Shown: in pieces, positions 49,722 to 50,214 of the stretch
How positions within the stretch are numbered: position 1 is the stretch's first letter
How the letters are laid out: every line of letters begins with the position of its first letter
Assembly (NCBI GenBank): GCA_018266755.1
Contig: JAFDZW010000005.1
Location: 620,001 to 684,000, forward strand
Origin: Bacteroidota bacterium
Lineage (GTDB): Bacteria > Bacteroidota > Ignavibacteria > Palsa-1295
Direction of reading: 5' to 3'
DNA: 64,000 nt
Made by a program: the position numbers and the translations under genes
The notes under the pieces: model-generated
The model's input: the letters and a program-made list of their open reading frames with translations, nothing else
Database searches by the model: none
What the model was told of the DNA's origin: nothing

Positions 49722-50214
49722 TCATTCAATTGAATATTTCTTTAGTTTTTTAAGCCCTCGCTGGAAACGAGCTTTGCATGCTGTCAGCGGGATACCTTCT
49801 GCTGCGGATATCTCTTCAAATGACAAGCCTTCCAATCGTTTCTCAAAAATAGAGCGTTGCGCCGTAGTCAAATTAACCAGGAGCTGATCCAATGTAATAC
49901 GGTCTAAGATATCCTCCGCACCATTCCCTACAGAAAGGAATTCATTCGATCTGACCTCATAGAGAGAGAGAGAGAGAGAGAGAGAGAGAGAGAGAACGTT
50001 TCAACCTGCGAGATGCAACTGTGAGTAGCCAGGAAAATCTGACACGGGCATCGGTACGGGCAATTTCTGGCGCCGATCTAAAATAAATTTCGAACGCGTC
50101 TTGCAGTGCATCCTCTATATCTTCGTTTCTTGCATAGCTAAATCGTTTCCCAAGTATCCGTGCGAGGGTGGTAGTGTGTTCAGTAACTACCTTAGTAATT
50201 GAGTGGTTGTGCAT
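49722..50214 (-). pseudogene. phase-variable ECF sigma factor (currently out of frame)
   Basis: The start at 50214 opens an ECF sigma2 domain (RILGKRFSYARNEDIEDALQ, FSWLLTVASRRL). It runs into an alternating Ser-Leu stretch encoded by a (TC)17 tract and stops at once (TGA 49957), giving 85 residues. In another frame the same strand continues from TATGAGGTC to a stop at 49722 and encodes a full sigma4 domain (LTTAQRSIFEKRLEGLSFEE, IPLTACKARFQRGLKKL). Adding one CT unit, or removing two, joins the halves into 164 residues. This is the layout of a slipped-strand contingency switch. Without sigma4 the present product should not direct transcription. No anti-sigma gene is seen. Confidence 0.8.
49961..49995. 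repeat. (AG)17 dinucleotide microsatellite in sigma factor gene
   Basis: Seventeen AG units plus one base, inside coding sequence between sigma2 and sigma4. It reads as Ser-Leu codons on the minus strand. Dinucleotide tracts of this length are prone to replication slippage. Confidence 0.95.

Follow-up and report, generated by a model that had tools for sequence, protein, structure and literature searches.

A length-sensitive CT repeat splits an ECF sigma factor gene at the head of a recurrently repeat-associated operon in the Ignavibacteria

The window analysed here, a stretch of 64,000 nucleotides from a genome of the class Ignavibacteria (Bacteroidota), contains a complete ECF sigma factor gene that is split by a length-sensitive repeat and heads the operon of a gene family recurrently associated with simple repeats. 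The gene is probably a slipped-strand contingency locus, with the switch placed inside the coding sequence of the sigma factor. In such a locus, slippage during replication would lengthen or shorten, by whole CT units, the linker that connects region 2 to region 4. Approximately one length in three (31, 37, ... bp) would join the two regions through a Ser-Leu linker into a full-length sigma factor, and the remaining lengths, including the 35 bp of the assembly, would lead to a truncated region-2 fragment. The full-length factor would most likely turn on at least its own downstream operon, comprising ORF A, ORF B and two probably exported proteins, so that cells of one clone would differ, some expressing the operon and others silent. 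We infer that the tract varies in length, that cells in the ON state express the operon and that selection keeps the switch.

The repeat is a perfect (AG)17.5 array of 35 bp (100% match, positions 49961-49995), read as (CT)n on the minus strand, and it is the top-scoring tandem array in the window. Throughout the whole 3.55-Mb genome, an (AG)n tract of at least eight units occurs at this place only, and (AG)n tracts of the type with at least ten units are present in just 23 of the 391 genomes of the class. The first-pass annotation had described the region as the two halves of one ECF sigma factor, sigma2 and sigma4, lying in different frames and joined by a 35-base TC/AG tract; the ORF translation and the family models agree with this description, which proved exact to the base for the tract. 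In the present allele, the minus-strand ORF that begins at the ATG at 50214 encodes 85 amino acids, with a C-terminal (SL)6 ahead of the TGA at 49959-49957. The sigma gene as assembled is without a complete reading frame and corresponds to the OFF state, which counts against the switch. The further claim that tract length sets the frame was reproduced in silico, with 85 aa obtained at 35 bp, 164 aa after the addition of one unit (37 bp) and 162 aa after the removal of two units (31 bp). The ON lengths in this series equal 1 mod 6, and the other lengths near 35 bp stop after 83-96 residues. Since the repeat unit is not a multiple of three, the number of units toggles the product between full-length and truncated forms. 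The features of the locus, in window positions, are as follows.

50254 to 50283, minus strand: candidate promoter TTTG-N18-TATATTTG upstream of the sigma gene, picked out by eye and presumably of the Bacteroidota type
49722 to 50214, minus strand: ECF sigma gene in the ON reading, 164 aa at a tract of 37 bp, with the stop at 49724-49722; as assembled, the first 85 codons only
49996 to 50214, minus strand: region-2 half, 73 codons ahead of the tract (Sigma70_r2 21.4 bits, cut-off 24; inside the TIGR02937 match)
49961 to 49995, minus strand: (CT)17.5 tract, 35 bp, giving Ser-Leu codons in the linker between regions 2 and 4 (repeat and frame analysis)
49957 to 49959, minus strand: TGA ending the 85-aa product of the present frame (ORF translation)
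49725 to 49960, minus strand: region-4 half, 78 open codons, in a frame other than that of region 2 at the assembled length (Sigma70_r4_2 in the joined protein)
49060 to 49659, minus strand: ORF A, 199 aa, a predicted beta-sandwich whose recurring upstream partner is an ECF gene (homologue searches and model)
47939 to 49045, minus strand: ORF B, 368 aa, conserved in position and highly variable, with an HExxH motif (HELLH) and no Pfam or NCBIfam match
46938 to 47906, minus strand: ORF C, 322 aa, with a hydrophobic N-terminus, probably exported judging from its sequence
46469 to 46960, minus strand: ORF D, 163 aa, also with a hydrophobic N-terminus and, on the same grounds, probably exported

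Besides the frame of the tract, no further lesion was found in either sigma half in the sequence of this genome, and codon statistics weakly favour the expected frames. A switch is favoured because the tract is perfect, unique in the genome and located exactly between two lesion-free domains.

In the ON frame, regions 2 and 4 occur together in one protein that matches the NCBIfam model TIGR02937 (sigma70-ECF). The 164-aa form passes this model with 44.4 bits (cut-off 42.9) over residues 8-161, and the joined protein passes Pfam Sigma70_r4_2 with 41.6 bits (E 9.7e-11, cut-off 25.7); Sigma70_r2 is matched with 19-21 bits, slightly under its cut-off of 24. That a curated ECF model covers almost the entire joined protein also argues for the switch. 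A structural model of the ON-equivalent protein, made by readthrough with one four-letter step, comprises two confident helical domains (pLDDT 81, pTM 0.48), their mutual placement not being confident. In this model the repeat prolongs the last helix of region 2, and the low-confidence residues 86-98 follow directly behind it. The frames, the homologue alignment and the model all place the tract in the sigma2-sigma4 linker, as had been proposed from the first reading. A hydrophobic Ser-Leu linker is unusual for a sigma factor, which counts against the switch and the predicted activity of its ON form. The truncated region-2 fragment, devoid of region 4, would most likely have no sigma activity.

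The search of 391 genomes of the class with the sigma factor yielded only distant matches and no close orthologue, the best match being 30-34% identical (genome G043). The association of the sigma gene with ORF A came to light through the downstream gene, as the G043 match lies directly upstream of an ORF A homologue. An ECF gene directly upstream of ORF A is found at six loci in four genomes, namely the window, G043:C116, G025:C10 (where ORF A is truncated) and the G011 contigs C198, C218 and C239. The CT tract is absent from the linker at all five other loci. The first-pass annotation had pointed to homologous sigma factors as a test of whether the linker normally lacks the repeat, and it does: the closest homologues, in G043, G025 and G011, are intact and have ordinary linkers. 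With the linker measured between the conserved VASR stretch and the point where region 4 begins, we counted 33 residues in the ON form of the window (37 bp), about 40 in G043, and 21 in the window when the repeat is subtracted; the ON linker is thus closer to that of G043 than the repeat-free version, which again favours the switch. Three of the five other ECF genes paired with ORF A carry a C9-C11 tract that encodes PPP in the C-terminal tail, behind region 4. In the homologous pairs, therefore, the repeat, if there is one, lies in the sigma tail and not in the linker, and this counts against a switch in the window.

The strongest alternative, although an unlikely one, is that the sigma gene is a decaying pseudogene, inactivated by repeat expansion, and that selection plays no part in keeping the tract. 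In favour of this, the sole genome at hand has the gene out of frame, and the genome of the same genus (G001) lacks it. Moreover, it lies in a low-GC block that looks acquired, and acquired genes are often lost. However, neither half shows a second lesion, and region 4, with 41.6 bits against the Pfam model, scores better than the intact G043 homologue (18.5 bits). A chance expansion in a dead gene would also leave unexplained the long pure repeats that recur around the module in other genomes.

The low-GC block extends over 46463-50449, with 43-46% GC against mostly 51-59% in its surroundings, and its composition suggests that it has been acquired. The block, including the sigma operon, sits between an ABC-F ATPase gene and a transporter gene. 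In a comparison of the flanks with members of the family, none of the loci covered, each about 1.5 kb around panC, had the ABC-F or the transporter gene, and no empty site was shown. The operon begins with the sigma gene, followed by ORF A and ORF B. An anti-sigma gene beside an ECF gene is common, not universal, and none of ORFs A-D matches an anti-sigma family in Pfam or NCBIfam. Given that no anti-sigma factor is recognised and that a candidate promoter can be read by eye before the sigma gene, the CT tract could be the main control of the sigma factor. The operon without a recognised anti-sigma factor, together with the presence of other (CT)n tracts of the class at secreted-protein or regulator genes, also favours the phase-variable reading.

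Only the adjacent operon can be defended as the target of the sigma factor; a whole regulon might respond to it as well. A shared ECF promoter, sought by k-mers and by the GAAC motif upstream of the ORF A copies, did not emerge as a general feature, GGAACT being found beside poly-G in two ORF A copies only; that the search yielded no target promoters counts against the switch. Two further ORF A copies are located in the same genome (locus L104, G000:C2:392000-406000, at 6195-6839 and 7821-8900), accompanied by neither a sigma gene nor a repeat. They are possible trans targets of the sigma factor of the window. The ORF A of the window has no repeat of its own, which counts against the switch, as do these two bare paralogues.

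The interpretation as a switch is independently strengthened by the downstream gene family, for which many genomes show long simple repeats close to the gene start or directly at it. A long simple repeat was counted when a tract of C or G of at least 9, of A or T of at least 13, or of a dinucleotide of at least 6 units lay between -400 and +90 bp of the ORF A start. By this definition, 22 of 62 ORF A copies are positive. The same loci supplied two controls, 105 starts of other genes with 2 positives, both CG repeats (p = 3e-9), and 503 background windows with 6. The p-values (4e-18 and 3e-9) overstate the certainty, as the definition was chosen once the first cases were known and the copies, being related by descent, are not independent. 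The positive copies belong to 12 genomes from seven families of the class (f1, f4, f7, f14, f15, f19 and f25). The ORF A homologues have tracts of poly-C, poly-G, poly-T or CT. Some of these belong to the leader, others to the 5' coding part, and others again to the sigma gene upstream, where they occupy its tail (loci L107-L122 and L151-L184, in G025, G043, G011, G010, G012, G127, G293, G296, G322 and others). Among the copies without a sigma gene, poly-C lies about 130 bp upstream in G025 (C9, C9, C7, C14 and C9), poly-G about 50 bp upstream in G010 (G12) and G011 (G11), and poly-C or poly-G in the likely 5' coding part in G025 (C9), G011 (C15) and G012 (G9). The ORF A module is recurrently associated with repeats, and in the source genome the repeat lies inside the sigma factor. 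The recurrence of the ECF-ORF A pair and the enrichment of repeats at ORF A starts further support slippage as a switch.

Two comparisons between similar sequences bear on length change. G127 has a pair of closely similar leaders with unequal numbers of CT units, and the G011 sigma genes of C218 and C239 have different poly-C tracts, which puts their tails in different frames. This is indirect evidence that tracts of this kind change length. The CT tracts near ORF A in G127 were also considered as a second sigma case and rejected, since the leader that contains them has no recognisable sigma gene.

Features by which contingency loci are recognised were found together in the window and its relatives: a long pure repeat above the genome background, a repeat unit that switches the frame, and recurrent repeats at the module in related genomes. 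A broader proposal, to which we give about an even chance, is that the module formed by ORF A and the variable ORF B is kept phase-variable across the class, with repeats that lie, depending on the lineage, in the leader, the 5' end of ORF A, the sigma tail or the sigma linker; slippage in the window would then switch the sigma factor together with all its targets.

Long (AG)n tracts were also analysed across the class, with 37 found in the 391 genomes. Many of them are located at the 5' ends of secreted-looking genes, where the Ser-Leu encoded by (CT)n enters the signal-peptide-like part, in some cases with a lipobox-like motif just behind. Loci of this type, with (CT)n at the start of a secreted-looking gene, are L045, L047, L049, L051, L052, L056-L059, L065 and L069. 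Three other tracts are at the start of regulators: a dCache-PAS sensor has one in each of two congeneric species (54 and 55 bp), and the third is at an AraC-type regulator (36 bp). These positions indicate that long, slippage-prone tracts at gene starts, mostly of exported proteins and occasionally of regulators, are a habit of the class. Candidate repeat-switched regulators are those at L053 (tract 393-447), L129 (431-484) and L126 (1502-1537).

An assembly error is very improbable. On this reading the gene would be constitutively intact, with a Ser-Leu linker, its true tract having one fixed length that keeps the frame (31 or 37 bp); errors in repeat length can arise in assembly. However, the tract lies on a contig of 1.8 Mb in an assembly of 11 contigs that is 100% complete. 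A pure dinucleotide tract of 31-37 bp is expected to slip, and a switch would be likely even if the length had been miscalled. Recoding, in which the ribosome or the RNA polymerase slips on the tract and some full-length protein arises from the 35-bp allele with the DNA unchanged, merits equally little credence: the required shift (+1 = -2), as a 2-base slip, would keep codon pairing anywhere in the tract, but the homologues without the tract offer no conserved recoding site, and many other repeats of the class and the module occupy promoter regions or leaders, in which recoding brings no benefit.

A phase-variable sigma factor has parallels among known systems. PMC6837544 names BvgAS of Bordetella and FlgR of Campylobacter as repeat-switched regulators, Mga of group A Streptococcus is another according to work cited in PMC11868660, and AgrA/AgrC of Staphylococcus aureus is described in PMC7911514. 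As in these systems, a simple repeat in a regulator gene would shift the frame and alter the expression of the controlled genes. However, the tracts of the known examples are homopolymers, in genes for two-component proteins or transcription activators, whereas the window has a sigma factor with a 17.5-unit dinucleotide in an interdomain linker. Heterogeneity of sigma factors has also been described: SigD of Clostridioides difficile becomes heterogeneous via the flagellar switch, an inversion upstream of the operon (PMC6837544), and SigH of S. aureus by a gene duplication that replaces the leader (PMC7911514). The proposed mechanism shares with both a reversible DNA change that leaves the sigma factor active in part of the population, although in the window the change would take place in a repeat that is part of the sigma coding sequence. 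Furthermore, as in phasevarions, which are based on phase-variable DNA methyltransferases (PMC11475388), one tract in one gene would alter the expression of several others, although through promoter recognition by a sigma factor and not through DNA methylation. The factor resembles ECF factors with a neighbouring target operon in having only regions 2 and 4 and in heading an operon, and differs from them in lacking a recognised anti-sigma factor and in having its linker interrupted by a repeat tract.

Repeat-switched regulators are already known; what is new is that the gene proposed to be switched encodes a sigma factor. A literature search, with subscription papers mostly outside its reach, found no published sigma coding sequence gated by a simple sequence repeat, and no phase-variation papers for this bacterial class. 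If the switch is real, it would be the first case known to us of a sigma factor switched by slippage in its own coding sequence, and the reach of a single hypermutable tract would extend beyond one surface protein to promoter recognition. The results also point to an undescribed, widely distributed gene module that has repeatedly been placed near hypermutable repeats.

ORF A belongs to a family of proteins of about 200 aa present in 28 of the 391 genomes of the class, often in several copies. Searches of PDB and BFVD gave no confident relative, with weak beta-sandwich matches at TM-scores near 0.3. The module proteins match no family model except for one copy with a PQQ-type propeller, and PADLOC gave no match. 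ORF B follows ORF A at most loci, its sequence differing greatly from one locus to another. The combination of a constant small ORF A with a variable large ORF B suggests a carrier-and-cargo arrangement, and our guess is that ORF A may be the carrier and ORF B the variable cargo. Many ORF B copies have Pro/Gly-rich N-terminal parts, and HExxH is shared by the window copy and a few others.
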